Below are positions 3,574 through 60,985 of a stretch of 64,000 bases of DNA, piece by piece; within the stretch, counting starts at the first letter, position 1, and each line of letters opens with the position of its first letter. The DNA lies in the NCBI GenBank assembly GCA_947579605.1, contig OX388325.1:2351572-2415571 (forward strand), written 5' to 3'. The notes below the pieces were generated by a model. The model did no database searches. It was not told where the DNA came from and saw nothing but the letters and a program-made list of their open reading frames with translations. The position numbers were made by a program, and so were the translations under genes. The DNA is from Athripsodes cinereus (lineage: Eukaryota; Arthropoda; Insecta; Trichoptera; Leptoceridae).

Positions 3574-3734
3574 TAATATTACACTGTAATCGTCTGTTGT
3601 GTTGGGATGCCTGATGCCCCTCAATGATTTTTCTGTGACGTCATCCTTTAATGGTCTATTCTCTGGGGGATCAAGATTTGTAATAAATTGATTAGAATTA
3701 TCATTATTAGAATTTATATTATCTATTGAATTCA

Positions 3735-14284: not shown

Positions 14285-14602
14285 CTTCTATGTAGGGATG
14301 TCGATGTCAAGTCAACTGCGTGCCACTAAAAAACTACTACTTTTTGCATAAAAACCTAAAATAATACACAAAGAAATCAATATTATTATTCAAACACTGT
14401 TCGGCAATCAAAATAATGATAAAATGACGTAAATTATAGTATAATATTAAAGTATTGATAAAAATTCTGAATGCAAGTAAAGTGCTTTGGATACATACAT
14501 TGAGAATGAGTTGAGGGGAGCCCGGAGCAAAAATTATAACGGCTACGAAACATTCAAAACTTACGGGTGGTACCCTTGCGTCTTGCTACTATATATAATG
14601 AG

Positions 14603-25090: not shown

Positions 25091-26860
25091 GAAAATCGTA
25101 TACGTTACAAAAAAAGTAGTTCAGCGAGCGATCATGGAATCAAGAATGAAATTTATATTGCAACAGCATTTTTACTCCAAGTCAATAAGGAACGTAAGTT
25201 TTCAATCGCAACGCAAATGGAACAGTCTGAAGTCGGAAAGTTCGATGATTTGATCATCAAGTGCGATGAAGAAGAACTAGGGAAGCAGTCGTCCATATTT
25301 ATGCAACTTAAATATAAAGAAAATCTGGAAAAAAAGATAACTAAAAATGATTTACTCAAATTTGATAATAAAAGTGAGTTTGGTCTTCCTAAATATATAT
25401 GCTCATGGTTAACATCACTTCAACACAATGAAGACCTGGGTAATGTAAAAACCTTTATTTTAAGCACAACTGTAGATATTCACTCAACTTTTAAAAATGT
25501 AAATAAAGTGACATCGCTTCCAAGTTGCATACCAAATTTTAAAAAGGAAATTGGTGGAGAGATGACATTTTACAATCTAACCACCGATTTAATCACTGAA
25601 TTGAGCGAATGCTGTATAAAATATCACTTAAAGTACACACTGGCCAAGAATTTAATAGGTGATATCTTGTTACGCAATGGTCCGTTTAACCGTCAGTCAG
25701 TGGATATTTCTCTCTCTACAATTATATGTTTGAAGGCAATTGAATTGAAAGTGTTCCGTAAAATATTTGATTTAGATGAAAATAAAAGTGTTAGAAAAAT
25801 GACCGATGACTTTATAGACGGAAATAATAATCTAGATGATATATGTTCAGAATTTCGAAGATTTTTCATAGAAGAAGTGATTACTACGACAAAGCGTGAT
25901 CGGATAGCCCTAGAAGGTATGCAACCGTTGGTTTGGATCAACAAATTCTTCAGCCAACGTCAATACATACTTAAATATAAACAGGAGGAACCGCAAGAAT
26001 CAGATCTGCTGGGGGAAAAATTGAAAGAATTTTTTAATTTATTCCAGTTGGCTGTGAATCAACCCAACGTTAACGACATGGAAGAATTAATAAGGAAACT
26101 AATGGAACAAAATCCTCTATTCAAAAATCGACCTGTGTCAGTGGCTTATTTGGTTAATGAAGTAAAGAAATGGCATAACGCTAAAGAAGGATATTTTATA
26201 GACAAAGAGAATTATAAACATTTATATCGGCGTGCTTTTCTATTCGGAATGAGTTCACAGTATGTTACTTGTAAATCTAATGTCGCTTTAGAATTCGATG
26301 AAACATCCAACAATAGTTTTAGAGAAAAAATATTCAATATTGGAAAGCCAATTATTCTTTTCTCTGTGAATAAAAATCATAGTCCATTGATTATGAAATT
26401 CTATGAATCTTTTCAAAATATTATTGGTAATATTTACTCGTATATATTGGATGTGAAAAAACTTATAGAAAGAGAAATCTCTCTGCAAGACGTGATAGAC
26501 TTGTTATATAACTATACTCCAGATGGTTCGAAGATAATAGTTGTATTCGATTGTAATTGTTGCAGTACAGGCGAATGGATTGAGTTAAGTAATATGTACC
26601 AAAATAATAAAAAAAATAAAACACTAAAACTTGTGTTCATTGACTCAATCTATGATATAAAAAAAAAATTATGCGAAAAATTTGTCAATAAAGTTTACAA
26701 AACGTTTTTAAAGGAAAATTATAATGAAGAAATAAATATTATAAACAAAAAGGAATCACTATTACGTTGTTTTGAAGAATCAGACCTGAGAACCTTATTT
26801 GAATTAAATTATACAAAGTGTGACAACTCGTCATGTGAATTTTTATATCATCTTTGTTAA
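25091..26860 (+). CDS. Nuclease-like N-terminal paralogue of the NLR-like gene (3' exon), lacking NACHT and ankyrin domains
   Basis: The open frame starts after a strong splice acceptor (TTTTTTCTCTGTTTAG, ending at 25090), so the first methionine at 25217 is probably internal. Residues from 25091 align with the protein starting at 39369: YKKSSSASDHG against YRKGNSANNQG. The nuclease-like signature is complete here: Glu44, FDD at 51-53 and MQLKYK with Gln71 and Lys73, counted from 25091. Further shared blocks are FRRFFIEEVI, FFNLFQLAVNQPN, KKWHNAKEGYFIDKENY and LKLVFIDS. The frame ends at TAA 26858-26860, soon after SLLRCFEESDLRTLFE, before any P-loop. After the stop the same frame is open for 54 codons to TAG at 27023. 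The upstream exon with the true start was not identified. It may be a pseudogene or a short partner protein; molecular role is unproven. Confidence 0.75.
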   Translation, partial: ENRIRYKKSSSASDHGIKNEIYIATAFLLQVNKERKFSIATQMEQSEVGKFDDLIIKCDEEELGKQSSIFMQLKYKENLEKKITKNDLLKFDNKSEFGLPKYICSWLTSLQHNEDLGNVKTFILSTTVDIHSTFKNVNKVTSLPSCIPNFKKEIGGEMTFYNLTTDLITELSECCIKYHLKYTLAKNLIGDILLRNGPFNRQSVDISLSTIICLKAIELKVFRKIFDLDENKSVRKMTDDFIDGNNNLDDICSEFRRFFIEEVITTTKRDRIALEGMQPLVWINKFFSQRQYILKYKQEEPQESDLLGEKLKEFFNLFQLAVNQPNVNDMEELIRKLMEQNPLFKNRPVSVAYLVNEVKKWHNAKEGYFIDKENYKHLYRRAFLFGMSSQYVTCKSNVALEFDETSNNSFREKIFNIGKPIILFSVNKNHSPLIMKFYESFQNIIGNIYSYILDVKKLIEREISLQDVIDLLYNYTPDGSKIIVVFDCNCCSTGEWIELSNMYQNNKKNKTLKLVFIDSIYDIKKKLCEKFVNKVYKTFLKENYNEEINIINKKESLLRCFEESDLRTLFELNYTKCDNSSCEFLYHLC

Positions 26861-29160: not shown

Positions 29161-32100
29161 ATGGCGACAAGTGTGGTGGATTCAATCCAACAGCTAAAAG
29201 ATGGAGTGAATTTTCCAAACTGGAAATATCGACTATTACTCATTTTAGAAGAACAAGGATTGAAGGAAGTAATAATAAATAATAAATATATAGAAAGCAA
29301 GAGCGCAGATGCAATAATTAAAAAAGAAGATGCACGTGCAAAATCTCTGATAGCACGCGGTCTATCAGACAAATACATAGAATATATCAAGAAAGCAAAC
29401 ACATCATATGAAATGATGAAGTGCCTGGAGCACATATTTGAAAGAAAAAGTGCATTTAATAAACTATATTTGAGGAAACAACTCCTAACCTTAAAATGCG
29501 GTATGAATGAAAGCCTACAAGAACACTTTCTAAAGTTTGATGCAATCATCAATAAATTACAAAATATGAGCACAAACGAAATGGAAGAATGTGACAAAAT
29601 ATGCCATCTCCTGTTAACTATCCCAAAAAAGTACGATAGTGTGGTATCAACAATAGAAACATTAAGCAACGACAAGGAATTGACAATAGAATTTGTAAAA
29701 AGCTGTCTGCTGGATGCTGAGCTTAAAGTGAAGGAGGAAAAGAATCCAGAAGAAGCAAGTTTCATGTCGAGAATACCGGTGTGCAGCCACTGCAGAAAGA
29801 GAGGCCACAGAACTGAACAATGCTGGTTTAACCCGGAAAACAAAAAAGATAAACAACAATTCAAAAAAAGAGGTCACTATAATCAAATAAAGAAGAAGAC
29901 ATTCACAAATGTAGCAGTAAAAAACAGGGAAGAACTTTTATTCTCTAATGATAATTATTATACATATAAAAATTGTAATATAGAATGGGTCGTTGACTCG
30001 GGGTGTACAGAACATCTCATACAACATGATTATGTAAAATACATGACAGATCTAACAGAGATTGAGGATATAAAAATATATGTAGCTAATGGTCAATATC
30101 TAACATCAAATTTGAAGGGTAACATTAAGATGCAGTACAAGGGTAGAAATTTCAGTATGGAAGCATTAGTTGTTAAAAATTTAAAGTTTAATTTGTTGTC
30201 AGTAAAGAAAATGGTACAAAAGGGTTATAATGTAACATTTAAAGAGAAATTTGTGGAAATTTATCATCTAAAGTCTAGACAAAGTATTTATGGAAAATGT
30301 ACTGATAAATTGTTTATTTTGCAGATGGAATGCATTAGCGTAACCACAGATACCTGCAATGCAACAGTAAGCTCGATGGATTTGTGGCACAAGCGACTCG
30401 GACATTTGAATAGAAAATCTCTACGTTTAATGAATCTGCCAGTCAGTACAGAACCTTGCTCATCCTGTATCGAAGGGAAATCTACAAGATTACCATTTAC
30501 AACAACAATAAAAACTAGATCGAGATATGTTGGCGAATTGCTTCACACAGATATATCAGGCCCTATAAATGTGAGTACATTAAATGATGAAATTTACTAC
30601 CAAGTCATAATAGATGATTATTCTCACTTCACACAAGTATACCTTCTAAGAAACAAATATGAAGCTACGGAAAATCTCATTCAATATATAAAACAACTGG
30701 AAAGACAAACAAATAATAAAGTACAACGTATAAGGTGTGATAATGGAGGCGAATTTAAAAACAAAACAATTTATAATTTTTGTAAGAATACTGGTATAAG
30801 AATTGAATACACACAACCATATTCTCCACAGCAAAACGGAGTAGCAGAACGAATGAATCGAACATTAATGGACAAAGTTCGAACATTATTCGCTGAAACA
30901 AAATTACCAAAATATCTATGGGGTGAAGCCATATTATGTAGCACATATCAACTTAATCGTTGTCCATCATCAGCAATTAAATATAAAACTCACCAAAAAT
31001 ATTCACCAGTGGCAAGATTATCTACAATAAGATTATTTATTAGCTATGCTCTTCAATATAATTTACCTATTAGACAGTTGGATATACCAACAGCATTTTT
31101 AAATGGTGAACTTGACACTGAAGTTTACATAAAACCTCCAGAGGGTTTACAAATTAAAAAGGAAAGAGTCCTTAAATTAAAAAAGGCTCTATATGGATTA
31201 AAAGAAGCATCCATATGTTGGAACAAACAATTTTATAAATTTATGTCAAAATTAGACTTCAAGCAGTCTAAACATGATTTTTGTCTTTACTACAAGGATA
31301 ATACTTATCTATTAACATTTGTTGATGATATAATTGTTAAGGGAAACCATAAAAATGTAATTGAAAAACTAAAAGAAGAATTTAAAGCAAAGGATTTGGG
31401 ATATTTACAGAATTATTTAGGAATGGAAATAACGAGAAACAAGAATCAAATAATTATCTCACAAGAAAAGTTTATTTTAAAGATTTTGGAAAGATTTAAT
31501 ATGGAAAATTGTAACGGAACAAAAACTCCCATGGAAGTAAATTTTAAAGCAAATATGGAAGACAAGATAATAGATGTTCCATATAGAGAATTGATAGGAT
31601 GTCTTATGTATCTGTCTACTACAAGCAGACCTGATATAACATATGCGACATCATATTTAAGCAGATTTTTGGATAAACCAACAGAGAACTTATGGAAAGC
31701 TGCAAAGAGAGTATTGAGATATCTAAAATTTACAAGTGAGAAAAATATGGTATATGAAAGGAGCAGTTGTAAAAATCAACTAAAAGCATACAGTGACTCA
31801 GACTGGGCAGGTGATATATCAGACAGAAAAAGTACAAGTGGGACAGCCATTCTATTTTGTGGAAATCTGATATCATGGAATTCAAGAAAGCAAGGTGTTG
31901 TAGCATTATCTACGGCAGAAGCTGAATATGTCGCTGCTGCCACAACTACGTCTGAACTGTTGTATTTGCAAGGTATATTGAAAGATTTCAATTGTGGTAA
32001 TGTTAATTCATTTCTATTTTTAGATAACCAAAGTACTATAAAATTAATTGAATCAAATGAAAATAGTAAACGATCAAAACATATTGATATCAAATATCAT

Positions 32101-32178
32101 TTCATTAAAGATAGTTTCAATAAAAGACTCTTTAATATTAATTATGTTCCATCAGAACAAAATTTGTCAGACTTATAA
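29161..32178 (+). CDS. Copia Gag-Pol polyprotein, in-frame deleted (1005 residues)
   Basis: Order of domains: Gag (UBN2-like; FPNWKYRLLLILEEQ), CCHC knuckle CSHCRKRGHRTEQC, protease VDSGC, GAG-pre-integrase (WHKRLGHLN), integrase with HTDISGP, RCDNGGEF and QQNGVAERMNRT, RT with FVDDI, and RNase H with SDSDWAGD and ALSTAEAEYVA. At about 30992-31000 the sequence passes in frame from CPSSAIKYKTH to QKYSPVARLS. This removes the integrase C-terminus and the RT start, roughly 200 or more residues. The true C-terminus is also shifted: KSLTRDKHEFFVCL follows the stop in another frame. The long open frame is therefore not a functional polyprotein. Confidence 0.85.
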   Translation: MATSVVDSIQQLKDGVNFPNWKYRLLLILEEQGLKEVIINNKYIESKSADAIIKKEDARAKSLIARGLSDKYIEYIKKANTSYEMMKCLEHIFERKSAFNKLYLRKQLLTLKCGMNESLQEHFLKFDAIINKLQNMSTNEMEECDKICHLLLTIPKKYDSVVSTIETLSNDKELTIEFVKSCLLDAELKVKEEKNPEEASFMSRIPVCSHCRKRGHRTEQCWFNPENKKDKQQFKKRGHYNQIKKKTFTNVAVKNREELLFSNDNYYTYKNCNIEWVVDSGCTEHLIQHDYVKYMTDLTEIEDIKIYVANGQYLTSNLKGNIKMQYKGRNFSMEALVVKNLKFNLLSVKKMVQKGYNVTFKEKFVEIYHLKSRQSIYGKCTDKLFILQMECISVTTDTCNATVSSMDLWHKRLGHLNRKSLRLMNLPVSTEPCSSCIEGKSTRLPFTTTIKTRSRYVGELLHTDISGPINVSTLNDEIYYQVIIDDYSHFTQVYLLRNKYEATENLIQYIKQLERQTNNKVQRIRCDNGGEFKNKTIYNFCKNTGIRIEYTQPYSPQQNGVAERMNRTLMDKVRTLFAETKLPKYLWGEAILCSTYQLNRCPSSAIKYKTHQKYSPVARLSTIRLFISYALQYNLPIRQLDIPTAFLNGELDTEVYIKPPEGLQIKKERVLKLKKALYGLKEASICWNKQFYKFMSKLDFKQSKHDFCLYYKDNTYLLTFVDDIIVKGNHKNVIEKLKEEFKAKDLGYLQNYLGMEITRNKNQIIISQEKFILKILERFNMENCNGTKTPMEVNFKANMEDKIIDVPYRELIGCLMYLSTTSRPDITYATSYLSRFLDKPTENLWKAAKRVLRYLKFTSEKNMVYERSSCKNQLKAYSDSDWAGDISDRKSTSGTAILFCGNLISWNSRKQGVVALSTAEAEYVAAATTTSELLYLQGILKDFNCGNVNSFLFLDNQSTIKLIESNENSKRSKHIDIKYHFIKDSFNKRLFNINYVPSEQNLSDL

Positions 32179-39326: not shown

Positions 39327-39342
39327 CTGTTGTTGATTTCAG
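39327..39342 (+). promoter_or_regulatory. 3' splice acceptor of the NLR-like gene
   Basis: A T-rich tract followed by TTGATTTCAG ends at 39342. The in-frame sequence upstream of it is probably intron. The open frame drawn back to 39309 begins with TTG, not ATG, so 39369 is the better start. Confidence 0.65.
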
Positions 39343-39368: not shown

Positions 39369-42300
39369 ATGGATTCCATTACAATGGAATGCAGCACAGA
39401 AGAGTGCAGTACAACACAGATATATCGCAAAGGAAATTCAGCTAACAATCAAGGTGCGTCATATCTAATTAATTTGTCACACGCTCTGTTGCCGTGTTTA
39501 GCTTCTGATGAAACTTATAGTGACGTAAAGTTAATGGTAGAACTTCATGAAGATATCTCAGGTAAATTCGATGACCTTAACATTGTACAACAAGTTGAAA
39601 GTAAGAATTATGTAACAATGATTCAACTTAAACATAAGGCATCTAAAGGTGCGATTATAAACAAATACACGTTAACATCGCATACAAAGCCGCAGTTTAA
39701 TATTTGGCGATATGTTAATTCTTATTCTACAAAAATTAAAACTTATGTGTCTACAAATAGTGATAATCAAACCTTAAAACATTTAGTACTCTACACCAAT
39801 AGCCCCGTTGAGGAATCCTTCAAGAAAGATTATCTTACGGAGCCCAGTGAAATACCTTCCTTCCTAACGCGCATACATCCATCAGGATTCCACAAACTTA
39901 GATATGATAAATGCTTAGAGCTGTGTTTAACATGCATTGCCAATGAATTTCGTTCGAACATCAAGAAACAAAAAATCTTTGATTTATCCAAAGTTGATTT
40001 CAATTTATGTAGAGATGTGATTCAGCTCGATGATGAAAGCCGCATTACAGAATTGAAAAATGATTTTGTCACGGGTGAAGGAAAGTTCAAAGACACAAGT
40101 TCAATACATGCATGTTTCAGAAGACATGTCATCTCGGAATTAAACAAAATAGGAAGTAAAATCTCAGACAACGAATTCACAAGAAAAAAACTCAAATATA
40201 CGGACGACGAAACGTCACAAGGGTCAGAAGATATTTGCCTCATGTTTGAAGAGTTTCTAAGAGACTTTTGTGATTTATTTATTTTGGCCACGAATCAACC
40301 AGATGACAGTGCTATGATTATTAATGCAAAAGAAATCCTAAATGAACATTCTTATTTTAAAGGCTGCAAAATTGATGGCATATACAATTTTATTTATAAT
40401 AAAATGAAAAAGTGGTTTAGTGACAAAGAAGGGTATTTTTTCAATAAAGCAGATTGCAAGAATTTATTAATAAAGGCTCGTCTGGATCAAAAATCCATAG
40501 ACCAGAGAAATGAGCTAAACAAGACATATTCCTCCATACATTTCACTGAGGACTCCATCAATAAGTTTAAAACACAAATAAAAGACGAAGCTGAAACTGT
40601 TATATCAATCAACATAAATGGGAAGTCCTCCTGCATACTGATAAAGAAATTCATTGAAGTTTTCCACGGGCAGGGTGATAATAATTCCCTGTATATTGTC
40701 AATGTGAAGGAAGTGATGGAGACAATGTCTCTGCAAGACATTGTGAATGGAGTGGGAGAGATTGTGCCTCTGAAGGATAAGTCTAGTGAGTCCTCTTCCT
40801 CAATAGTAGTGTTGCATTGTAGTAACTGTAACGTTAGCGATGACTATAATAGTAATTGTGATATGAACCTATGGATAAAGGAAACTAATTTCGGTGAAAT
40901 CATCAAAGATCTTACAAATATCAAACTGGTTTTCATTCCATGTGATGATTTAAGTGTTAAAGATGTAAATGTACATTATGGTATTACTGGAGAAATATTG
41001 GCAAATGATATATCAGACGAATCTGAGATTTTCGCTCGAGAAACGCTTAGATTTAATGGAGTAGAAAAATCTTTAATAAATATATTAGGACAGTCGTGGC
41101 AAACTTTCAAGGAATGCAAAATAGATAACACCGATATGTTCAGTGAGCTAGCGCAGTCTATTGCAAAAAATAAAAAAATCATAATAGCGGAAGAACCACA
41201 AAATACATCTCAATTAGATGCAGCACACATGCAATGTAATTATGAACTTAATGTGGAACGTTTCAAAAAAATCTTATCAGAAGATAGTGGGTGTGCGTTT
41301 GCCGTTAGTCGTCATATGGAAGATGAAATACAGAGGTTATGTCAACTAGATGAGGCCCCATTTAAAAAATATAAAAAAGACAAGAAGATAGTTTTCTTCG
41401 ATATAAAAGATAAAAAACAAAGAGTATTAGAAGATTTTTGCGATAATTTTCAAAGGAATAACGCAAATTTTCAGAAGATATTCTGGATTGAAATAAAAGA
41501 CGATTCTCTAATTGTACGTGCGGTATTTAATCCAACATACTACATACAGAGAGAACTTATTCAGAAGAGTAAAATAATAAAAGTGAACACAGAGAAGATG
41601 GCTGAAATACTCCATAGTGGTAAGAAAGTTAGTATTGTGGTGAAAAATTTTACTAATAATAAAACTTTCAAAAATAAACTAAAAGATAATGATGATCCTA
41701 CTAAAATAGAAATATGTATGCAAAATATTAAAATGTACCCAGGAAATGAAGGAAAGCTAGAGTATAAGAATCTATGCAAAGAAAACAATACAGTTCACTT
41801 GCTGGAATGGTGCGATGATGAAGATCTGAGGTGGATACGATCACACGGATCCATGGAACTATTGAGGGAAAGTGAGCGTGGTGATCAAGTTATAGACTTG
41901 ATTTCATCAGGATCTCCATCATTAGTAATCATATCAGACGATCCTGGGATGGGCAAATCCACATATCTGACTTACATATCTCAACTTATAAAGGAATCCA
42001 AATGGATTATCAGAATAAACTTTAGGGAAGGGTTGGTCACAAAAGCTTTGGAAAGTTTTGATAGTGATAATATTGTGGAGTTCTTGACTAATATTGAATT
42101 TCTAAACACAAACACTTCTGTTGTTGCAAAATCATTGTTACAATATTATCTAAGGGAAGATATTTCTTCAAATGACAACATATTGTTGTTCATCCTGGAC
42201 GGGCTGAATGAAGTTCCTGGAGAGCTACTGGAGAAGGCTAAAGAGTTACTTAAAATCTTAGTGAAAGATACAACTAGTACTGTTTATATCGCAACTCGAC

Positions 42301-45300
42301 AACATTATACATCTTTGCTTGAAGACCAACATTCATTTCTCTCTATGAAACTCAAAGAAATATCATTCGATGATCAGTGTAAATTCTTAATTAATTACTG
42401 GGAAAATAATTTAAATAAAAATGTTGAGTACAAGACTGCTGAAAATTTCCTAATGACAATGTCTGGTGTATGGGGAGACACTACTGAGTTCATAGGAATA
42501 CCTTTGTACCTAAGAATGATATCAGAAGTTTCCTTTAAAGATAAAAAAAATGAGGAATTATATAAGAAACAATTTGATGTGAATATGTTATATGAATATT
42601 TCATTGAAAATAAATATGAAATATATTTTAAGGATAAGTGTAATGATTCGTTCACCAAACAAACACGCAAAAAAATGGAGAAACAAATACAAAACATTCT
42701 TAGTGAGTTCGCCTTCATATATTTATTTCCTAAGTATCGCAATCGCCTTGGAAGAGATATAGAGGTGGACATAACAGAGAATCGAGAAGATTATTTACTG
42801 TTAGGTTTGTTGCAGGCTAAAGGTTCCTATGAGGAGCTTTATTTTCCTCATAGAACCTACTATGAGCATTACGCTGCGCGATTTATAGTGGATTCTTTAC
42901 AAAAGAAAGAGAGCAATAAGACCAAGTACACTTTGGCATTGGATGCTGTTAAATCTGGATTATACTCGGAGAAAAATAGAGGAGAGAATAAAATGTTGAA
43001 AATGTTTATGGATTGTATACTGGTTGCTGAACTTCCATTACACAAGGCAATATTTAATAAGGACCTACAGTTATTTTACAAGTTGTCATATAAGGAGCCA
43101 AGAGATGTACAAGATGCACTGGGTAGATCGGCCTTGCACATGGCTGCACAATATGGAAACACAGATTTAATTAATGATCTGATACTTGCTGGCTGGGATG
43201 GAACTATTAGTGATGTTTTGGGTAGGACACCTTTACATTGGATGATATTGAACAGATATATTGATTGGGAAGATATTAAAATATTGATTGAGTCTCACAG
43301 TGACATAAATATGGAAAACAATATATTAAAAAATAAAAATGTAATAAAAGGGAATATAATAAATATATTTGGAAATGAATATGACACTGAAAGTAAGATA
43401 CTAAAGATGATTAATTCAAAAGATGTGTATGGATACACCCCTCTGTACTATGCAGGAAATAATAAGAATTGGAAGATATGCACTGAATTGTTATACTACG
43501 GAGCCAACTGTAATGCACTCAGTATGGTAACACAAACTTATTTAAGTTCTTACATATTGAAAGACGTAATCAATTACGTAGAGTGTTCCCATTCAATATT
43601 CCCATTACTTGTGTTACAAAATCGTATAAATATATTTGAGTATGATGAGGAAATTTCATTAATACCAGATTATATTAATACTTGTCTTGAACATAAATTA
43701 TACATAATAGTTAATAATCTAATTAAAGAAAAGGCGATACAAGATCTAATAAAACGGAAAGAAATAAAAATGGAAAACATAAATGTAATTATATATGAAT
43801 GCTTAGGATACTTAATAGAAGATATTCATTTGAATGATGAGGACTGTTTAAGAATTTTCAAATTTTTACACGAAAATGACTCAAGACGACAAGATGCGAA
43901 TATTAATTATCTACAAGAAAGTATAAAGAAAGCAGCTGAATGTGATCGCTTAGAAACATTTAAATATATACTTAAAGTAAAGAATAACAATATAACACCA
44001 GATGATGTAGTGAGTTGTCTAAAGTTAGCAATGGATAGATCCTGTATGGATATTGTGAAATATATTTGTACAGAACACAGAGATAAAGTAGCTGCTGGTA
44101 AGGTTGCTCTCATGTACGCTGCTCAGTGCGGGAGGTTGGCTGTAGTTAAATACTTGGATGAACATGGAACTGATTTAAGTTACAGGAACAGTGAAGGGAT
44201 GACAGCACTTCACTATGCAGCTCAGAGTAGCAGGATGGATATTATGAAGTACCTTGTGAGCAGAGGAGGTGATGTTAATCTTTGTGATTCTCATGGGAAG
44301 ACAGTCTTAGACTATGCATTTAACAGTAAGAGAAGTGGTACTTATCTTTTAGATGAGAGTTTCTCATGCGTCCAGTATTTAGTAATGAAATGTGAAGCAA
44401 GATTAGGATCTGACACTTCTAATGATTCCTATTACAGGGATTTAGAACAGATTTGTGGAGTATCCCGCGAGTCTGTAAATATACAAGATACCAATGGAGA
44501 AACTCTCTTACACAAAGCTGTTAAAGTGAACAGTGAAGTCCTTGTCAGACATCTTATATCTTTGGGAGCAAATGTGAATGCAGTGGACAGTGAAGGTAAA
44601 ACACCCCTAGAATGTTTGAAGGAGCCATCGGATATTTCTCTCGTGTTACTTCTAAATGGTGCTCATTGTAAATCTTCATACAAACACCTTATTCCACTAA
44701 CATACTGTAGTGGTGTGCTATCAAACAACTCTGTTATCTGGAATATAAAGAATTCTAACTTACAAACATTAATACACATGGCTGCTCACTTGGGATGTAA
44801 CAGAGATGATGACAGTAGTTCTGATGATGAGGATGACGACAAATGTTCTACTCAAATTGATGAAACTAATGTTTTGTCTTCGATACTGAATATATGTAAT
44901 GACGTCAGAAGATGCAAGCCACTGAATATAATATCTACACAAGATGATGCTGGGGACACTGCCTTACATATCGCAGCACGCCTCGGTGACTGTAAAAATA
45001 TAAATATATTGTTAAAACAATCTGCAAAGTATAATATTCTCAATAACAAAGGAGAAACACCAGCAGAATGCTGCAGTACATCAAACGCCAATAAAATTAT
45101 CGAACAATTTGATATCATTTGTAATTTCTTTGCAATAATCAAAGAAACAAAACTTGAAGAATTTGATATTAAGTTAATATCCTATAAGTACATTGATGTA
45201 AGAGACGCAGATGGAAGAACAGCTCTACACTGGGCTGTGCTTCTTAAGAGCTCCCAAATAGTAGAATCTCTGTTGAGGAAGGGTGCCTGTACAGAAGTGT

Positions 45301-48300
45301 CTGATGATTATTTACTAACTCCTCTGCACTACGCTGCTATTGAGGGAGATAGAGAGATTATATGTCAGCTGCTCGCACATGGGGCAGCGTTCAACTGTCG
45401 AGACAAAAATAACAAGACACCAGCTGATGTATGCAGTGCACAACTAAATGTAATCAGAGAGATAGAAGATATATTCAATCGTATAAGTAATGAAGGCAAT
45501 AATAGTTGTACAATCATTTCAACTCGATTAAATTATTCAACACTAGAAGACGATGTTGCACTGGCTGCAGCAGGAGCTTGCGATGAGAGAGGAAATACTT
45601 TGATTCATTATGCTGCTCATAGGGGAAACGTGGAAGTACTAAACTTCTTATTGAGCAGAAGTGGAGTATATAATAAAACTAATTCATTGGGATATACACC
45701 TGAAGATGTAACTGATAATAAAGACATTCTAAAACGCTTTAAATTAATAAGAAACATATTTGAATTGTATAAAAGAAATAACATTGTATCAACATACAGC
45801 TTCATTCAGCCCATGTTAGACGATAAAATAATAGAATCTTTAGTAAACTGTAAAGATATGAATGGAAATACTCTACTGCACTTCGTGGGTGACATATATT
45901 TTGCAAAAGAGATCGTAAAGAAAACAAAGTATTTATATTGTCCTAATAAAAAGGAACGCACTCCATTAATGAATGTTGCTAGTAGAGGTAATGCTTATAT
46001 CATTAAACTAATCTGTGAAAAGGACAAATGTGGTATTTTTAAAAAAGATAATTATGGGCAGACTGTACTACACATGGCTGCGACAAGTGGTGATATAAAC
46101 GCAGTAAGGTATTTGGTTAATAACGGAGTAAAAAATATAATTAATGAAAAAGATTATAAAGGACGCACAGCATCAGAATTGGCAGTCACAAAAGGACATA
46201 TGAATATAATGAACTTCTTAGAAGATAATTGTATCATAGAAAATAAAACACATAATCAAATTACATCAGCTGCATATTTTAAAAACAAACTTATTAAAAA
46301 TATTCAACTAACGGATATTGATATGCTACATAATATTATTAAAAATGGTGACATAGATGTAATCAAGGTAGGGATGGAGAAACCATTTAATATAATTCAT
46401 GAAAAAAATAAAGATGGAAAAATTACGATACATGTTGCTGCTAAGTATGGACACAAGGATATAGTAGAGTATCTGGTTCAAAAAGGGGGTGAAGGTATTA
46501 TAAATGAAAAAGATAACAACGGTTGGACTGCATTACATATAGCTGCCCAGAATGGACATAAAGAAGTAGTAGAGTATCTGGTTCAAAAAGGGGGTGAAGG
46601 TATTATAAATGAAAAAGATAACAATTGTTGGACTGCATTACATATAGCTGCCCAGAATGGACATAAAGAAGTAGTAGAGTATCTTGTTCAAAATGGGGGT
46701 GAAGTTATTATAAATGAAAAAGATAACAAGGATTGGACTGCATTACACAAAGCTGCCTGGAATGGACATAAAGAAGTAGTAGAGTATCTTGTTCAAAATG
46801 GGGGTGAAGGTATTATAAATGTAAAAGATTACGACGGTTGGACTGCATTACATATAGCTGCCCAGTATGGACATAAAGAAGTAGTAGAGTATCTTGTTCA
46901 AAATGGGGATGAAGGTATTATAAATGAAAAATATAACAAGGGTTGGACTGCATTACACAAAGCTGCCTGGAATGGACATAAAGAAGTAGTAGAGTATGTT
47001 GTTCAAATTGGGGGTGAAGGTATTATAAATGAAAAAAATAACAAGGGTTGGACTGCATTACACCAAGCTGCCTGGAATGGACATAAAGAAGTAGTAGAGT
47101 ATCTGGTTCAAAAAGGGGGTGAAGGTATTATAAATGAAAAAAATAAGGACGGTGTGACTGCATTATATATAGCTGCCCAGAATGGACATAAAGAAGTAGT
47201 AGAGTATCTTGTTCAAAATGGGGGTGAAGGTATTATAAATGAAAAAGATAACGACGGTTGGACTGCATTACACAAAGCTGCCTGGAATGGACATAAAGAA
47301 GTAGTAGAGTATCTTGTTCAAAATGGGGGTGAAGGTATTATAAATGAAAAAGATAACGACGGTTGGACTGCATTACACCAAGCTGCCCAGAATGGACATA
47401 AAGAAGTAGTAGAGTATCTTGTTCAAAATGGGGGTGAAGGTATTATCAATGAAAAAGATAACGACGGTTGGACTGCATTACACCAAGCTGCCCAGAATGG
47501 ACATAAAGAAGTAGTAGAGTATCTTGTTCAAAATGGGGGTGAAGGTATTATAAATGAAAAAGATAACAATTGTTGGACTGCATTACATATAGCTGCCCAG
47601 AATGGACATAAAGAAGTAGTAGAGTATCTTGTTCAAAATGGGGGTGAAGTTATTATAAATGAAAAAAATAAGGACGGTGTGACTGCATTACACCAAGCTG
47701 CCTGGAATGGACATAAAGAACTAGTAGAGTATCTGGTTCAAAATGGGGGTGAAGGTATTATAAATGAAAAAGATAACGACGGTTGGACTGCATTACACCA
47801 AGCTGCCCAGAATGGACATAAAGAAGTAGTAGAGTATCTTGTTCAAAATGGGGGTGAAGGTATTATAAATGAAAAAGATAACGACGGTTGGACTGCATTA
47901 CACCAAGCTGCCCAGAATGGACATAAAGAAGTAGTAGAGTATCTTGTTCAAAATGGGGGTGAAGGTATTATAAATGACAAAAATAAGGACGGTGTGACTG
48001 CATTACATATAGCTGCCCAGAATGGACATAAAGAAGTAGTAGAGTATCTTGTTCAAAATGGGGGTGAAGGTATTATAAATGAAAAAAATAAGGACGGTGT
48101 GACTGCATTACATATAGCTGCCCAGAATGGACATAAAGAAGTAGTAGAGTATCTTGTTCAAAATGGGGGTGAAGGTATTATAAATGAAAAAGATAACGAC
48201 GGTTGGACTGCATTACACAAAGCTGCCTGGAATGGACATAAAGAAGTAGTAGAGTATCTTGTTCAAAATGAGGGTGAAGGTGCTATAACTGAAAAAGATA

Positions 48301-49337
48301 ATGAAGGTTGGACGTCATTACATAAAGCTGCCCAGAATGGACATAAAGAAGTAGTAGAGTATCTTGTTCAAAATGGGGGTGAAGATATTATAAATGAAAA
48401 AACTAATGATGGTTGTACTGCATTACATATAGCTGCCCAGAATGGACATAAAGAAGTAGTAGAGTATTTGGTTCGACATGGGAGTGAAGATATTATAAAT
48501 GAAAAAACTAATGATGGTTGTACTGCATTACATATAGCTGCCCAGAATGGACATAAGGATGTAGTTGAGTGTCTGGTTGAAATCGGAGATGAAGATATTA
48601 TAAATGAAAGAAATAATGATGGTTGTACCGCATTACATGTAGCTGCTCTGAATAGACATAAGGATGTAGTAGAGTATCTGGTTGTAAAAGGAGGTAAAGA
48701 TATTATAAATAAAAAAACTACTCTTGGTTGGACTGCATTACATATAGCTGCTTTGAATCGACATAAGGATTTATTACATCATCTGATTCAAAACGGCAGT
48801 AAAGGTATTATAAATGAAAGAAATAATGATGGTTTTACCGCATTACATATAGCTGCTGAGAATGGACATAAGGATGCAGTAGAGTATCTGGTTCTAATTG
48901 GAGGTGAAGATATTGTAAATGAAAAAAATAATGATGGTTGTACTGCATTACATATAGCTGCCCAGAATGGACATATGGATGTAGTTGAGTGTCTGGTTGA
49001 AATCGGAGGTGAAGATATTGTAAATGAAAAAAATAATGATGGCTCTACTGCATTACATATAGCTGCCCAAAATGGACATAAGGATGTAGTTGAGTATCTT
49101 ATTATTTTCGAAGATAATAATATTATAAAGGAAAAAAATAGTAATGGTTGTACTGCATTACATTTAGCTGCTGAGAATGGACACAAGGATGTGGTAGAGC
49201 ATCTGGTTCTATTCGGAGGTAAAGGTATTATAAATGAAAGAAATAATGATGGTTGTACCGCATTATATATAGCTGTTTTGAAGAAACATAAGGATGTAGT
49301 AGATTATCTGCTTCTAATTGGAGGTGAATTATTATAA
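39369..49337 (+). CDS. NLR/STAND-like protein: nuclease-like domain, NACHT NTPase, ankyrin array (~3322 residues)
   Basis: Start chosen at the first ATG after the acceptor (MDSITMECSTEE). Numbered from there: residues ~20-120 hold a PD-(D/E)XK-like signature, Glu58, FDD 67-69 and IQLKHK with Gln86 and Lys88. Residues ~120-840 are mostly helical linker and share LFILATNQPD and KEGYFFNK with the gene at 25091. NACHT: Walker A DDPGMGKST (Lys863), Walker B LLFILDGLNEV (Asp944), sensor IATRQHY (Arg977), GIPLYL (Pro1045), winged-helix FPHRTYYEHYAARF (His1161). Degenerate ankyrin repeats start at ~1251 (GRSALHMAAQYGN), with an acidic stretch SSSDDEDDDK near 1820. Residues 2349-3322 are 28 regular ankyrin repeats. 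No signal peptide or membrane segment is seen, so cytosolic or nuclear location is likely. Function as a nuclease-effector sensor is inferred by analogy to bacterial Avs proteins. Confidence 0.88.
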   Translation: MDSITMECSTEECSTTQIYRKGNSANNQGASYLINLSHALLPCLASDETYSDVKLMVELHEDISGKFDDLNIVQQVESKNYVTMIQLKHKASKGAIINKYTLTSHTKPQFNIWRYVNSYSTKIKTYVSTNSDNQTLKHLVLYTNSPVEESFKKDYLTEPSEIPSFLTRIHPSGFHKLRYDKCLELCLTCIANEFRSNIKKQKIFDLSKVDFNLCRDVIQLDDESRITELKNDFVTGEGKFKDTSSIHACFRRHVISELNKIGSKISDNEFTRKKLKYTDDETSQGSEDICLMFEEFLRDFCDLFILATNQPDDSAMIINAKEILNEHSYFKGCKIDGIYNFIYNKMKKWFSDKEGYFFNKADCKNLLIKARLDQKSIDQRNELNKTYSSIHFTEDSINKFKTQIKDEAETVISININGKSSCILIKKFIEVFHGQGDNNSLYIVNVKEVMETMSLQDIVNGVGEIVPLKDKSSESSSSIVVLHCSNCNVSDDYNSNCDMNLWIKETNFGEIIKDLTNIKLVFIPCDDLSVKDVNVHYGITGEILANDISDESEIFARETLRFNGVEKSLINILGQSWQTFKECKIDNTDMFSELAQSIAKNKKIIIAEEPQNTSQLDAAHMQCNYELNVERFKKILSEDSGCAFAVSRHMEDEIQRLCQLDEAPFKKYKKDKKIVFFDIKDKKQRVLEDFCDNFQRNNANFQKIFWIEIKDDSLIVRAVFNPTYYIQRELIQKSKIIKVNTEKMAEILHSGKKVSIVVKNFTNNKTFKNKLKDNDDPTKIEICMQNIKMYPGNEGKLEYKNLCKENNTVHLLEWCDDEDLRWIRSHGSMELLRESERGDQVIDLISSGSPSLVIISDDPGMGKSTYLTYISQLIKESKWIIRINFREGLVTKALESFDSDNIVEFLTNIEFLNTNTSVVAKSLLQYYLREDISSNDNILLFILDGLNEVPGELLEKAKELLKILVKDTTSTVYIATRQHYTSLLEDQHSFLSMKLKEISFDDQCKFLINYWENNLNKNVEYKTAENFLMTMSGVWGDTTEFIGIPLYLRMISEVSFKDKKNEELYKKQFDVNMLYEYFIENKYEIYFKDKCNDSFTKQTRKKMEKQIQNILSEFAFIYLFPKYRNRLGRDIEVDITENREDYLLLGLLQAKGSYEELYFPHRTYYEHYAARFIVDSLQKKESNKTKYTLALDAVKSGLYSEKNRGENKMLKMFMDCILVAELPLHKAIFNKDLQLFYKLSYKEPRDVQDALGRSALHMAAQYGNTDLINDLILAGWDGTISDVLGRTPLHWMILNRYIDWEDIKILIESHSDINMENNILKNKNVIKGNIINIFGNEYDTESKILKMINSKDVYGYTPLYYAGNNKNWKICTELLYYGANCNALSMVTQTYLSSYILKDVINYVECSHSIFPLLVLQNRINIFEYDEEISLIPDYINTCLEHKLYIIVNNLIKEKAIQDLIKRKEIKMENINVIIYECLGYLIEDIHLNDEDCLRIFKFLHENDSRRQDANINYLQESIKKAAECDRLETFKYILKVKNNNITPDDVVSCLKLAMDRSCMDIVKYICTEHRDKVAAGKVALMYAAQCGRLAVVKYLDEHGTDLSYRNSEGMTALHYAAQSSRMDIMKYLVSRGGDVNLCDSHGKTVLDYAFNSKRSGTYLLDESFSCVQYLVMKCEARLGSDTSNDSYYRDLEQICGVSRESVNIQDTNGETLLHKAVKVNSEVLVRHLISLGANVNAVDSEGKTPLECLKEPSDISLVLLLNGAHCKSSYKHLIPLTYCSGVLSNNSVIWNIKNSNLQTLIHMAAHLGCNRDDDSSSDDEDDDKCSTQIDETNVLSSILNICNDVRRCKPLNIISTQDDAGDTALHIAARLGDCKNINILLKQSAKYNILNNKGETPAECCSTSNANKIIEQFDIICNFFAIIKETKLEEFDIKLISYKYIDVRDADGRTALHWAVLLKSSQIVESLLRKGACTEVSDDYLLTPLHYAAIEGDREIICQLLAHGAAFNCRDKNNKTPADVCSAQLNVIREIEDIFNRISNEGNNSCTIISTRLNYSTLEDDVALAAAGACDERGNTLIHYAAHRGNVEVLNFLLSRSGVYNKTNSLGYTPEDVTDNKDILKRFKLIRNIFELYKRNNIVSTYSFIQPMLDDKIIESLVNCKDMNGNTLLHFVGDIYFAKEIVKKTKYLYCPNKKERTPLMNVASRGNAYIIKLICEKDKCGIFKKDNYGQTVLHMAATSGDINAVRYLVNNGVKNIINEKDYKGRTASELAVTKGHMNIMNFLEDNCIIENKTHNQITSAAYFKNKLIKNIQLTDIDMLHNIIKNGDIDVIKVGMEKPFNIIHEKNKDGKITIHVAAKYGHKDIVEYLVQKGGEGIINEKDNNGWTALHIAAQNGHKEVVEYLVQKGGEGIINEKDNNCWTALHIAAQNGHKEVVEYLVQNGGEVIINEKDNKDWTALHKAAWNGHKEVVEYLVQNGGEGIINVKDYDGWTALHIAAQYGHKEVVEYLVQNGDEGIINEKYNKGWTALHKAAWNGHKEVVEYVVQIGGEGIINEKNNKGWTALHQAAWNGHKEVVEYLVQKGGEGIINEKNKDGVTALYIAAQNGHKEVVEYLVQNGGEGIINEKDNDGWTALHKAAWNGHKEVVEYLVQNGGEGIINEKDNDGWTALHQAAQNGHKEVVEYLVQNGGEGIINEKDNDGWTALHQAAQNGHKEVVEYLVQNGGEGIINEKDNNCWTALHIAAQNGHKEVVEYLVQNGGEVIINEKNKDGVTALHQAAWNGHKELVEYLVQNGGEGIINEKDNDGWTALHQAAQNGHKEVVEYLVQNGGEGIINEKDNDGWTALHQAAQNGHKEVVEYLVQNGGEGIINDKNKDGVTALHIAAQNGHKEVVEYLVQNGGEGIINEKNKDGVTALHIAAQNGHKEVVEYLVQNGGEGIINEKDNDGWTALHKAAWNGHKEVVEYLVQNEGEGAITEKDNEGWTSLHKAAQNGHKEVVEYLVQNGGEDIINEKTNDGCTALHIAAQNGHKEVVEYLVRHGSEDIINEKTNDGCTALHIAAQNGHKDVVECLVEIGDEDIINERNNDGCTALHVAALNRHKDVVEYLVVKGGKDIINKKTTLGWTALHIAALNRHKDLLHHLIQNGSKGIINERNNDGFTALHIAAENGHKDAVEYLVLIGGEDIVNEKNNDGCTALHIAAQNGHMDVVECLVEIGGEDIVNEKNNDGSTALHIAAQNGHKDVVEYLIIFEDNNIIKEKNSNGCTALHLAAENGHKDVVEHLVLFGGKGIINERNNDGCTALYIAVLKKHKDVVDYLLLIGGELL
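46413..49337 (+). repeat. 28 tandem ankyrin repeats, exact 105-bp period
   Basis: The TALH-type codons recur every 105 bases from 46422 to 49257 with no indel. Each 35-residue unit is of the form DGWTALHQAAQNGHKEVVEY plus LVQNGGEGIINEKDN, two residues longer than the canonical 33-residue ankyrin repeat. Units 2-18 are nearly identical in DNA. Units 19-28 diverge (HKDVVE, IGGEDI). Variation concentrates at the residues after LH (I, K, Q, V) and after AA (Q, W, E, L), on the first helix. This part lies inside the large gene. Confidence 0.97.
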
Positions 49338-49374
49338 ATGAAAAAATAATGACGGTTGGACTACATTATATATA
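49338..49374 (+). pseudogene. Frame-shifted 29th ankyrin repeat
   Basis: After the stop the DNA still matches a repeat unit: ATTATAAATGAAAAA, then TAATGACGGTTGGACTACAT. It has small deletions in the GGEDIINEK and NEKNND codons. The match resumes after an insertion at 49607 (CTACATTATATATAGCTGCT, i.e. TLYIAA). The array was once longer. Confidence 0.75.
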
Positions 49375-54484: not shown

Positions 54485-57400
54485 TTAAGTCTCTTTCTGA
54501 GTGATCATACCCAGCATCCTTCTTAATTTTTCAAACTTCTCTCTAGGCAATGGTTTGGTAAGAATGTCAGCAATCTGGTCATCTGAAGGAACATACTTTA
54601 ATATAAAACTGTTGTCATTGTACTTTTCTCTGATGAAGTTGTATTTAATGTCTATGTGCTTGGTGGATTTATGTTTGTTGGAATTTTTGATGTAGCTTAT
54701 AGTGCTCTGATTATCTATATGGAGTGTGAACATAATGTTATCAATATTTGTCATATTTGCCATTACTTGCTTTAGCCATAAAATCTCCTTGACAGCGGCA
54801 CATGCAGCCATGAATTCTGCTTCCATGGTGGAGAGTGCTACAGTTGGTTGTCTCTGAGAGTTCCATGTAACAGCAGTGTTCATGTGCATGGTGGCATATC
54901 CAGTAGTTGAGCGGCGAGTATTGCAGTCACTTGCGTAATCAGAGTCTGAGAAAATGTTAATTGATTCTATACTCCCACCCTTATAGTACAGTCCTAGGTC
55001 TTGTGTTCCTTTCAGGTATCGAATGATTCTCTTGGCTGATATCCAGTGTGAGGTACTATAGCTATTAAGGTAACGGCTCAAAACACTCACAGCGAACATT
55101 ATGTCCGGTCTACTCACAATGGCAAGATACATTAGAGAGCCAATAACTTCTCTGTAAGGTAGTTTGCCGTTGAGTTGCTGCTCTTCCTGAGATGCTGTGA
55201 TATTTGGATCAGCTGGAATACATACTGCATTTGCCTCGTCCATATTCCATTTGGTGATTAGTTGCTTGGTATATTTTTCTTGGTGAATAAATATAGAACT
55301 GTTCTGCCTGTTTCTCTTTATCTGTATGCCTACATATTCCTTGACCTCTTCCTGCGTTGTCATGCTAAAGTTACAAGCCAGATCCCTCAGTACATCCTTC
55401 AGCACTTGGGAACATTGGGATAATATCAATCCATCATCAACGTACAGTAAAAGATATATTGTATGCTCCGACTTGGAACCAATGTACAAGCATTGGTCAG
55501 CTTCAGTAGGCTGCAGGCCATACTTGTTTAATATGTTGGTAAACTTGTTATTCCAGCACCTCGGTGACTGTTTCAAGCCATACAGTGACTTATTCAATTT
55601 GCATACAACATTTGGTTCTGAGACATTTAAGCCCTCAGGGGGCTGCATGAAAATGTTTTCCTTCAGTTCACCATAAAGAAAGGCTGTCTTTATATCAAAT
55701 TGATAAATTTCTAAGTTCCCTGCAGCGGCGTGTGTCAACATTAGTCGAATTGTGTCATATCTCACAGTTGGTGCAAATGTCTCTGTATAGTCTATCCCTT
55801 CCACTTGAGAGAAGCCTTTTGCACACAGTCTGGCTTTGTGTTTTACCGTGTTGTCCATTTCTTTTGACTTGAACACCCATTTGCATCCAATTGGCTTGAC
55901 ATTTGGTGGTGTATGTACTAATTGCCATGTTTCATTATCTTGATGAGCTGCTAGTTCCTCTTCAATTGCAGTTTTCCACACAGATGAGTTTTCACATTCT
56001 ACAGCTTCCCTGTATGTTGTTGGCACAAACTCTGTAATGTTGACTTCATACCTCTTGGGTACTTTGAGAGTATTCCGTGGCCTGAAGTTGACAATGTTTG
56101 GAGGGTATTCGTTGCTTGTACTAGGACATTCAAGAGCGAGGTCACTAAGCAGACGCAAGTCATCCGTGTCTGTAGATTCTGGAGATAAATTATGGGACGC
56201 ATTTATTTCCTCACTATTCTGTGTAAGAGTAGGCATTTGTTCTTGTGCAAAGTTCTCAAAATCATTATTATCATATCCTACGTCAAGTGTGCTTCTAGGA
56301 GTGGCTTCATGGCTACCAAATATCAAGACGGGCGTGTTATTGTCATTTTCTTCGACTATTGTGTAGTTTTCAAATACTTCCTCTTCCGCAAATATCACAT
56401 CTCTTGATATGGTAACTCTTTTGGTATTGGGATTATATAATCTGTAGTTACTTGAATTTCCATCATATCCTACAAAAATAAGTTTTTCGCTCTTGCTGTC
56501 GAACTTCCTTCTTTTCTCTTTAGGAATGTGTACATGTGCAACAGACCCAAAAGTTCGCAGGTGGCTTAGGTCTGGTTTTGTTCCTGTCCACTTCTCATAC
56601 GGTGTGGTCTCATGTTTGAAAGGAGTTCTGTTTAGAATATATACTGCAGTGTTAACGGCTTCCGCCCACAGATACTTTGGAAGATTTTTAGATTGCATCA
56701 TAGATCGAGCACTTTCTACAATAGTACGGTTGGATCGCTCACTGACCCCATTCTGCTGTGGAGTATATGGCGCTGTGGTTTGAAGCTGAATTCCTCTTTG
56801 AGCTGCATATTCTCTGAAAGCTTCATTACAGTATTCGAGCCCATTATCAGTGTGTAGAACTTTAACTTTATTTAATGCTGTATTTATTTTCCATCAGAGA
56901 TACATAATTTTTAAACACTTCCAATGTCTCATTCTTGTGTTTGAGAAATTTCACTACTCGGTAATTAGAAAAACTGTCTGTAAATGTTACGAAGTATTTG
57001 CTTCCAGCTATGGATGGTGCCTCCATGGGACCACACAAGTCACTATATATGATATCTCCATTTTCAAAGCTGGTAGGGAGGGAACCCTTTAAAGGACGTC
57101 TATGTTGTTTCCCTTTGATGCATCCCTCACACACAAAATCGTCGAATTTGTCAATTTTTATGCCGGTCACAGAATTCTTTGTTATCATGTTTCGTATAGT
57201 GTCGAGGTTCACATGCCCTAGGCGTTCATGCCATTTCTTAATTTCCGCCATGGCTACTGTCTTCCTGTTGACAACAGTTTCAAATTGCATCTCATAGAGA
57301 TTGTTTCCATTTTTTCTTGCATATGCAACTAGTTGCTTTCCCTTAAAAATCTTGGCAGTGTTATTTTCCTTGGTGATTTTCATCCCCTTCTGTGTTAAAA

Positions 57401-58358
57401 CTCCTTCTGCAAACAAATTCTTCCTCAACCCGGGGACATACCACACCTCTGATATTGACGACTCGTGCCAACATCCATCCACGAGTTTTTTAATTTTTAC
57501 CTCTCCTTTTCCTTTTACTTCTAACTCTACGTCATTTCCTAAGACGACATTGAGCCCTTGGCAGTTGTGGAAAGTTTCAAAGTAATCTCTTTGGTATGTC
57601 ATGTGGGCAGATGCTCCGCTGTCTAGTATCCATTTGTCTGAGCTTTTATTGGAAGGTCCCTCAGCACTGAAGGCACAATTTCTTGATTCAGACGTTCCAT
57701 TTCTTTTGGCTTGACGACAATCTCTTGCTAGGTGCCCTAACTTATTACAGTTATAACACCTGAATGTTCTTTTCTTTACAGATGCTAAAGCACTCCCATT
57801 AGAAGTGTTATCAAGAAGTTTTTCGTGTACTTCTTCATCAATGAGTCTAGCTGTGAGGTTGGATACCGTTTGCCTCGATGTGTCCATTGAAAGCCAGGCT
57901 TGCCTAAAAGTTCTGTAGGCTTCTGGAAGGCTGTTCACTATTTTAGTGATCATAGCGATATCACTTACGTTTTCACCAGCCTCTCTGAGTTGCCTTACAA
58001 TGTTCTCCACATTAGTTATGTGTACATTTATTGGCACATCCATGGTAATTCGATAGTTGGAGAATTGTTCGTATAAGAGCATTTTGCTCAGTTCTCCTTT
58101 TCTATTGTAGACAGTATCCAGCTTCTCCATTATTGCCATCGCACTTGTGCAGCTCTCCACAAGAGCGATTTGTTCCAAATCTAAGGCAGTGGAGATTAGA
58201 AACATGGCTTTGGCGTCCTGTTCCTCGCACACCTTTTCCGATGGTACATATACCACATCGTATAACTTGTTTGCCTTGAGCGCACAATTGATTTGGAATT
58301 TCCACTGGCGGTAGTTGAGCCCTGAGAATTTCGGCAGGGACTGACTGAAGGTGTTCAT
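54485..58358 (-). CDS. Copia Gag-Pol polyprotein with a single frameshift
   Basis: First frame 58358-56868: Gag (FSGLNYRQWKFQI), zinc knuckle CYNCNKLGHLARDC, protease ILDSGASAHM, GAG-pre-integrase (WHERLGHVN), integrase zinc motif and SDLCGP. At about 56870-56885, in an A-rich stretch after MENKYSI, the frame slips by one base. It continues with KVLHTDNGLEY, QQNGVSERSNRT, RT (KARLCAKGFSQ, YVDDGLIL), RNase H (FSDSDYASD, ALSTMEAEF), KHIDIKYNFI and a C-terminal DILTKPLP to 54485. About 1290 residues in total, close to full length for copia. All catalytic motifs are present; only the slip would stop a single polyprotein. It may be a sequencing error, a true mutation or, less likely, programmed. 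Confidence 0.9.
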
Positions 58359-58596
58359 CCTGATCTAATTGATGTGGGTTTCACGGTACTTTCTTAGTTG
58401 AGCAGCCCAACCGTTGTCAATTTTCAAACTTGTCGGCACACGTTTTCACCGATGCACTAGGTAACCTCACTTTTGTCGGCGTGTTCTTCTACGGAGTTCG
58501 ATACGCGCGTTTTTACTGTGAACTTGTCGACGCACGTTTATCGGCGAACTATGCAACCTTACTTTTCTTTAAAGGCGTATATCTGGGCCCATAACC

Positions 58597-59715: not shown

Positions 59716-59879
59716 AGGAACGGTGTATTGTGTTTTTATATAAAGTATATTAAAAAAGTTCTTGTAATTAAAGAGGCAACAGCTGTTTATTGTTTAATAG
59801 GTACACGAAAGGAAGTGGTGAAGGTATTATAAATAAGTTAAGCCAGTGATTGTAATAAGTAGTCCTTTCATTTCATTCT

Positions 59880-60985
59880 ACTTATATCTATATTATATTG
59901 TTACCACTTTTATCTGGTAGGTACAGCAGGCTGCAGTAACATATCACAAGTTACTTGAAATCCTACCTATATCTATATTATATTGTTACCACTTTTATCT
60001 GGTAGGCACAGCAGGCTGCAGTAACATATCACAAGTTACTTGAAATCCTACCTATATCTATATTATATTGTTACCACTTTTATCTGGTAGGCACAGCAGG
60101 CTGCAGTAACATATCACAAGTTACTTGAAATCCTACCTATATCTATATTATATTGTTACCACTTTTATCTGGTAGGTACAGCAGGCTGCAGTAACATATC
60201 ACAAGTTACTTGAAATCCTACCTATATCTATATTATATTGTTACCACTTTTATCTGGTAGGTACAGCAGGCTGCAGTAACATATCACAAGTTACTTGAAA
60301 TCCTACCTATATCTATATTATATTGTTACCACTTTTATCTGGTAGGTACAGCAGGTTGCAGTAACATATCACAAGTTACTTGAAATCCTACCTATATCTA
60401 TATTATATTGTTACCACTTTTATCTGGTAGGTACAGCAGGCTGCAGTAACATATCACAAGTTACTTGAAATCCTACCTATATCTATATTATATTGTTACC
60501 ACTTTTATCTGGTAGGTACAGCAGGCTGCAGTAACATATCACAAGTTACTTGAAATCCTACCTATATCTATATTATATTGTTACCACTTTTATCTGGGAG
60601 GTACAGCAGGCTGCAGTAACATATCACAAGTTACTTGAAATCCTACCTATATCTATATTATATTGTTACCACTTTTATCTGGTAGGTACAGCAGGCTGCA
60701 GTAACATATCACAAGTTACTTGAAATCCTACCTATATCTATATTATATTGTTACCACTTTTATCTGGTAGGTACAGCAGGCTGCAGTAACATATCACAAG
60801 TTACTTGAAATCCTACCTATATCTATATTATATTGTTACCACTTTTATCTGGGAGGTACAGCAGGCTGCAGTAACATATCACAAGTTACTTGAAATCCTA
60901 CCTATATCTATATTATATTGTTACCACTTTTATCTGGTAGGTATAGCAGGCTGCAGTAACATATCACAAGTTACTTGAAATCCAC
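59880..60985. repeat. 85-bp minisatellite, about 13 units
   Basis: TATCTGGTAGGTACAGCAGG recurs every 85 bases (59911, 59996, 60081, 60166 and on). The unit continues CTGCAGTAACATATCACAAG, TTACTTGAAATCCTACC and TATATCTATATTATATTG. Only single-base variants (GGCACAGC, GGGAGG, GGTTGCAG, GGTATAGC) separate copies, so the array is young or homogenised. A stray AGGTATTATAAAT at ~59822 precedes it. Confidence 0.96.

Follow-up and report, generated by a model that had tools for sequence, protein, structure and literature searches.

The genome of Athripsodes cinereus raises the question of what an insect protein that joins a nuclease-like domain, an NLR-type NACHT domain and a long ankyrin array might do. 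The protein is encoded at positions 39369-49337 (+) of a 64,000-nucleotide stretch (hereafter the window; GCA_947579605.1, OX388325.1, 2,351,572-2,415,571 of the forward strand) as a single unbroken frame of 3322 amino acids plus stop, and a stop-free run of 3322 codons would arise by chance with a probability of about 1e-115 given the base composition of the window. By analogy with known defence systems, it probably belongs to a large arthropod family of STAND receptors in which the ankyrin repeats would sense, the NACHT domain would switch and a Cap4/DUF4297-like nuclease would cut nucleic acid. What the analysis itself shows is the domain order, a predicted match in fold, the conservation of active-site residues, the presence of many gene copies with frames that are mostly open, ratios of nonsynonymous to synonymous substitution rates (dN/dS) of less than 1, and faster evolution in the sensor than in the effector. 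An earlier note made from the DNA letters had placed Glu58, FDD (67-69), QLK (86-88), Lys863, Asp944, Arg977 and an FPH(RT) motif in the protein, and all are found at those residue numbers.

The N-terminal domain is predicted to adopt a restriction-endonuclease-type fold of the Cap4/DUF4297/LmuA/Avs3 kind. It has the alpha-beta-beta-beta-alpha-beta core of the Cap4/DUF4297-like PD-(D/E)XK fold, and both the aspartate at the start of strand 2 and the (D/E/Q)xK motif on strand 3 are present in the window copy. The predicted fold agrees with the PD-(D/E)XK-type domain proposed in the earlier note, and no fold unrelated to restriction endonucleases was encountered. The model of a homologue (P0023) aligns with Avs3 across residues 15-425. 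The Pfam family Cap4_nuclease (PF14130) matches the window N-domain at E 1.4e-5 (4.4e-4 with 385 residues of the protein as query) with 25.8 bits, under the curated cut-off of 26.2, and the domain is therefore named Cap4-like rather than assigned to PF14130. The window domain was alone in matching PF14130 among the ten members of alignment A5; two of ten paralogue domains from the same genome matched, six other homologues and a truncated paralogue in the window (25091-26860 (+)) gave no match, and a six-frame scan of the whole genome returned nothing, as did 14 controls. The A5 members matched six PADLOC models (two LmuA, two SAVED-PD-(D/E)XK, one endonuclease effector and one candidate PDC-M13A), LmuA matching the window N-domain at E 0.0013. 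PADLOC and NCBIfam run on residues 1-1260 gave no match, and PDB sequence searches gave no credible match, the GCN5 and MutL rows being at chance level.

The protein is one of many. With residues 1-1260 alone as the query, two proteins were matched, one of them a NACHT-ankyrin protein of Periplaneta americana, although the full-length protein with the region set to the same residues gave no match. A four-sequence profile recovered at least 35 proteins at E <= 0.001; among the matches listed were 28 entries from Periplaneta, isoforms included, with 17 of the 28 lying on one 190-Mb contig, and one each from Cryptotermes, Mythimna and Cotesia. In the 716-Mb A. cinereus genome, in which the window sits on contig C21, the N-terminal 1260 residues match 42 stretches, grouped into at least 37 loci (19 on C21, 10 on C24 and 8 elsewhere), a lower bound because only the best candidates were scored. 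No stop interrupts the matched part in 34 of the 37 loci, and the open frames around the matches are mostly about 2000 to 4844 amino acids long. The truncated paralogue lies outside the 42 stretches and was the only other family piece found by tblastn in the window.

Were the gene a recent arrival from bacteria or from phage WO of Wolbachia, or a contaminant, two facts would be accounted for: the N-domain has its fold relatives in bacteria, and phage WO has a NACHT-ankyrin gene of arthropod affinity, as parts of one study report (PMC5062602). Such an origin is very improbable, as phage, plasmid and viral-contig collections gave no match, genome-contig searches gave nothing and then a single NACHT-level match (L035), the gene has a splice-acceptor-like site, most of the 37 loci are on contigs of at least 15 Mb, and the named homologues are insects. 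The empty phage, plasmid and viral-contig searches, together with the multi-locus family, led us to reject a recent bacterial or phage gene or a contaminant. In the searches so far, all bacterial or phage relatives are more distant than the insect ones, which tells against a recent transfer; an ancient one may have occurred. L035, from a Tannerella metagenome-assembled genome, is a bacterial NACHT protein that resembles the family in its NACHT region alone, with 21% identity; it has hydrophobic segments, and no FDD-QxK stretch was seen in it.

The active site was examined in 65 aligned N-domains, 34 from this genome (including the truncated paralogue) and 31 external. The former cover 33 of the 37 loci (29 of L001-L030, plus L031-L034), the loci outside the set being L009, the N-part of which is a separate match, C21:19684488, C24:2511938 and C48:22965. 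The filter for the mostly external set demanded an FDD motif, which left out P0026 and P0032, both beginning downstream of the motif, and P0036 (Cotesia) and P0037, in which none was seen; P0025, without the stretch preceding the motif, was also left out. In the rows so selected, D69 and Q86 are present in 65 of 65, D68 and K88 in 64, and F67 in 63, so that FDD and QLK are kept in homologues, and the non-conservation that would have told against the earlier note was not encountered. A single row, L022 (C2:6479871-6483131), breaks both D68 and K88; it is also the sole aligned row with in-frame stops, of which it has two, and provides a natural control for constraint.

Glu58, one of the residues named in the earlier note, is conserved within the main group of the genome, where all 27 rows with a letter have E (window copy counted), but not in the mostly external set, where residue 58 is N in 29 of 32 lettered rows and the acid is at residue 33 in those 29. 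The external Asn had suggested that Glu58 was a mistaken residue, an idea dropped since the copies in this genome show it to be the acid of their group. Residue 33 (helix 1) is acidic in 32 of the 65 rows and residue 58, where strand 1 ends, in the remaining 33, with both or neither in no row. Within this genome, E33/Q58 is found in L031, L034 and the truncated paralogue, which thus has the alternative arrangement, Q33/E58 in L024, L032 and L033, and P33/E58 in the main group. We take this pattern to mean that a single catalytic Glu is contributed by one or the other of two positions. A tree made by a quick method needs three exchanges, and the two sites move in opposite directions in all three independent pairs, although so small a number falls short of significance (sign test, p 0.25) and some parts of the tree are uncertain owing to long branches. 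The replacement of the helix-1 Glu by Pro or Leu in the group of the window copy weighs against a cutting enzyme, and would suit an N-domain that keeps the nuclease fold but binds or dimerises, in a protein that signals via partners and cuts nothing. We consider this unlikely, given that an acid stands at exactly one of the two sites in every row and that the one aligned copy to have lost D68 and K88 is the copy with stops.

The nuclease-like domain is followed by a NACHT domain of the NLR type. The Pfam NACHT family (PF05729) scores 17.4 bits in the window protein, under the cut-off of 26.7, and rises above it in four of the eight homologues scanned (P0002, 33.7; P0029, 37.1; P0034, 30.2; P0031, 29.3). 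The P0023 model has a NACHT fold matching NLRP3, NOD2 and NLRC4, and the Walker A, Walker B, sensor and winged-helix motifs of NACHT STAND NTPases occur in order before the ankyrin array, as the earlier note had described, with N947 as a departure from the family Walker B. A leucine-rich repeat sensor and a death-fold N-terminus, which together characterise canonical animal NLRs, had no Pfam match at E <= 1 in the whole protein and none in the N-domain. Asn947 may make the window copy weaker than its relatives. It is conceivable, if doubtful, that this copy has been weakened, or acts as a decoy, in a family that is otherwise active, an idea compatible with the receptor reading: Asn947 is found in this copy only, against Asp in 60 of 61 lettered rows, and Leu33 is likewise unique, against Pro in 27 rows from this genome. 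The 3322-codon open frame and the retention of Asp944, Glu948, Walker A and the nuclease motifs speak against it.

The ankyrin repeats reach the C-terminus, as claimed earlier: 27 tandem 35-residue units can be counted from residue 2352, with a DNA period of 105 bp across 46429-49374, and the Pfam ankyrin matches are overwhelming. A plain ankyrin protein was ruled out, as the N-domain and NACHT domain are conserved across the family. The variable positions of the tandem array coincide with those that we take to be randomised in designed ankyrin proteins (mean entropy 1.37 versus 0.56, permutation p 0.0013), which may be a weak sign of ligand binding, because the structural positions of ankyrins are conserved anyway. 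Two nuclease-NACHT homologues, P0002 and P0034, have a weak Pfam ankyrin match or none, and family members with other types of sensor may exist.

Comparison of close paralogues suggests how these parts evolve. In four groups, dN/dS spanned 0.26-0.60 in the nuclease, 0.37-0.72 in the linker, 0.31-0.51 in NACHT and 0.53-0.93 in residues 1215-1700, bearing in mind that the pairs are non-independent and that gene conversion may bias the values. The ankyrin part (1215-1700) had the highest value in all four groups, barely so in one (0.53 versus 0.51), and is the fastest-evolving part sampled. Between L010, L011, L012 and L024 on the one hand and L015, L017, L018 and L023 on the other, synonymous divergence (dS) is 0.83-1.13 in the nuclease and 0.04-0.21 in NACHT, i.e. 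two nuclease types are carried on near-identical NACHT domains. Paralogues have thus swapped nuclease domains, because the nuclease dS is far above the NACHT dS between the two sets. A non-immune role, such as keeping mobile elements or symbionts in check or degrading DNA in a programmed manner, would be in keeping with the position of the gene among retroelement-like frames; it seems improbable, since copy-number expansion, effector exchange and a fast repeat sensor are better suited to receptors of changing ligands, although this is an argument from pattern only.

The features of the locus are collected in Table 1. A short exon upstream of the start codon is likely, because a splice-acceptor-like sequence ends at 39342. 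Apart from the truncated paralogue, the other long frames of the window presumably represent retroelement and transposon remains: those at 29161-32178 (+) and 54485-58364 (-), the second split in two frames, are what we take to be Copia-like, and those at 2723-3640 (-) and 12366-14287 (-) presumably derive from mariner-type and MULE-type transposases, respectively. Satellite-like arrays are found at 59878-60983 (85 bp x 13, 99% matches) and 62573-62995 (53 bp x 8), and an 8-bp unit, AAATGAAT, is present in 26 copies at 1784-1994.

Table 1. Coordinates of the gene, its domains and motifs, and related features (window positions).
Feature	Position	Strand	Basis or remark
Whole ORF (open reading frame), nuclease-like/NACHT/ankyrin protein	39369..49337	+	ORF translation; 36 further loci in the same genome
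Splice-acceptor-like sequence TTGTTGATTTCAG	39330..39342	+	direct reading of DNA; 26 bases 5' of start codon
Cap4/DUF4297-like PD-(D/E)XK domain (predicted), residues 20-160	39426..39848	+	
Leu33, helix-1 position; Glu in most external homologues	39465..39467	+	alignments
Glu58, strand 1 end	39540..39542	+	kept in main paralogue group of the genome
Phe67-Asp68-Asp69, strand 2 start	39567..39575	+	F67 63/65, D68 64/65, D69 65/65
Gln86-Leu87-Lys88 (QxK), strand 3 end	39624..39632	+	Q86 65/65, K88 64/65
Linker, residues 161-820	39849..41828	+	common to family
NACHT NTPase, residues 852-1011	41922..42401	+	Pfam match, under cut-off
Walker A DPGMGKS (Lys863)	41940..41960	+	Lys in 61/61 rows with letter
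Walker B FILDGLNE (Asp944, Glu948 invariant; Asn947 only here)	42189..42212	+	947 is D in 60/61 rows with letter
Arg977, sensor-type arginine	42297..42299	+	30/30 rows from this genome; 26/28 lettered rows, mostly external set
FPHRT winged-helix-type motif (His1161)	42843..42857	+	His in 29/29 rows with letter from this genome
Irregular ankyrin region, residues 1215-2350	43011..46418	+	Pfam
Tandem 35-residue ankyrin repeat array	46422..49334	+	period analysis, repeat reading
Truncated paralogue, N-domain and linker only, stops before NACHT	25091..26860	+	26% identity, 548 columns, E 6e-34

The mechanism that we propose is modelled on Avs3, HerA-DUF4297 and NLRs, by analogy with which the protein is inferred to bind a ligand, oligomerise, cleave nucleic acid and act in immunity. 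A ligand that is foreign or signals danger would bind to the ankyrin array, NACHT would then exchange nucleotide and oligomerise, and the nuclease domains, brought together as dimers, would cut nucleic acid, probably double-stranded DNA. The animal counterpart of Avs/Cap4-type systems that the earlier note envisaged is thus upheld as regards the predicted fold, the conserved FDD/QLK, the NLR-type NACHT and the array, its functional part being an analogy. We would suggest, more tentatively, that insects hold a large, recombining Avs-like repertoire, with ankyrin-triggered NACHT assembly of a DNA nuclease, a catalytic Glu moved between two positions and nuclease domains exchanged between copies. 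If so, NLR-type immunity in animals would have a branch that acts through nuclease effectors, as a parallel to the bacterial Avs and CBASS effectors, and insects would gain a testable NLR-like arm, with dozens of open-frame copies in one genome. A multi-copy insect family uniting an NLR-type switch with an anti-phage effector fold would directly link bacterial and animal immunity.

Among known systems, bacterial Avs3 and Avs4 share with this protein an N-terminal Cap4-like PD-(D/E)XK nuclease, a STAND NTPase and a C-terminal sensor, in the order borne out here by the Pfam matches, the N-domain match and the P0023 model. Their sensor consists of tetratricopeptide repeats; the protein described here differs in its animal host, NLR-type NACHT and ankyrin sensor, and no close sequence kinship was found. 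Sequence, profile, plasmid and genome-contig searches revealed no close bacterial relative of the whole protein, and the protein is therefore described as resembling Avs in working principle and is not counted as a member. In HerA-associated DUF4297 and in Cap4 of CBASS, the nuclease is partnered with HerA or a SAVED domain rather than with NACHT-ankyrin. The LmuA nuclease of Lamassu works with an SMC-like protein, and HamA of Hachiman with a helicase, again rather than with NACHT-ankyrin. The animal NLRs NLRP3, NOD2 and NLRC4 have the same NACHT fold and the same order of Walker A, Walker B, sensor and winged helix, but their death-fold effectors and leucine-rich repeat sensors are replaced here by a nuclease-like domain and ankyrins; to our knowledge, animal NLRs are thought to signal via adaptors and carry no nuclease themselves. 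According to the earlier note, canonical NLRs are regarded as absent from Drosophila. Parts of two studies describe how viral protein binding unites and activates the nuclease domains of Avs3, and DUF4297-HerA as a double-stranded DNA nuclease active on assembly (PMC11291478, PMC12198126).

No report of a nuclease on insect NACHT-ankyrin proteins was found in the literature searched, which excluded preprints and most subscription papers. A 2016 study drew attention to NACHT-ankyrin proteins by way of a phage WO gene, with homologues throughout arthropods and crustaceans; these share NACHT and ankyrin repeats with this gene, as far as parts of that study describe them (PMC5062602). Its main text has no word starting "nuclease", the likeness is one of description, and the phage WO copy, unlike this gene, has a latrotoxin C-terminal domain. 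The NACHT-ankyrin part is thus already described in arthropods (PMC5062602, in part), and what we rate as new is the combination, in an animal, of an Avs-like receptor design with ankyrins and a NACHT of the NLR type.
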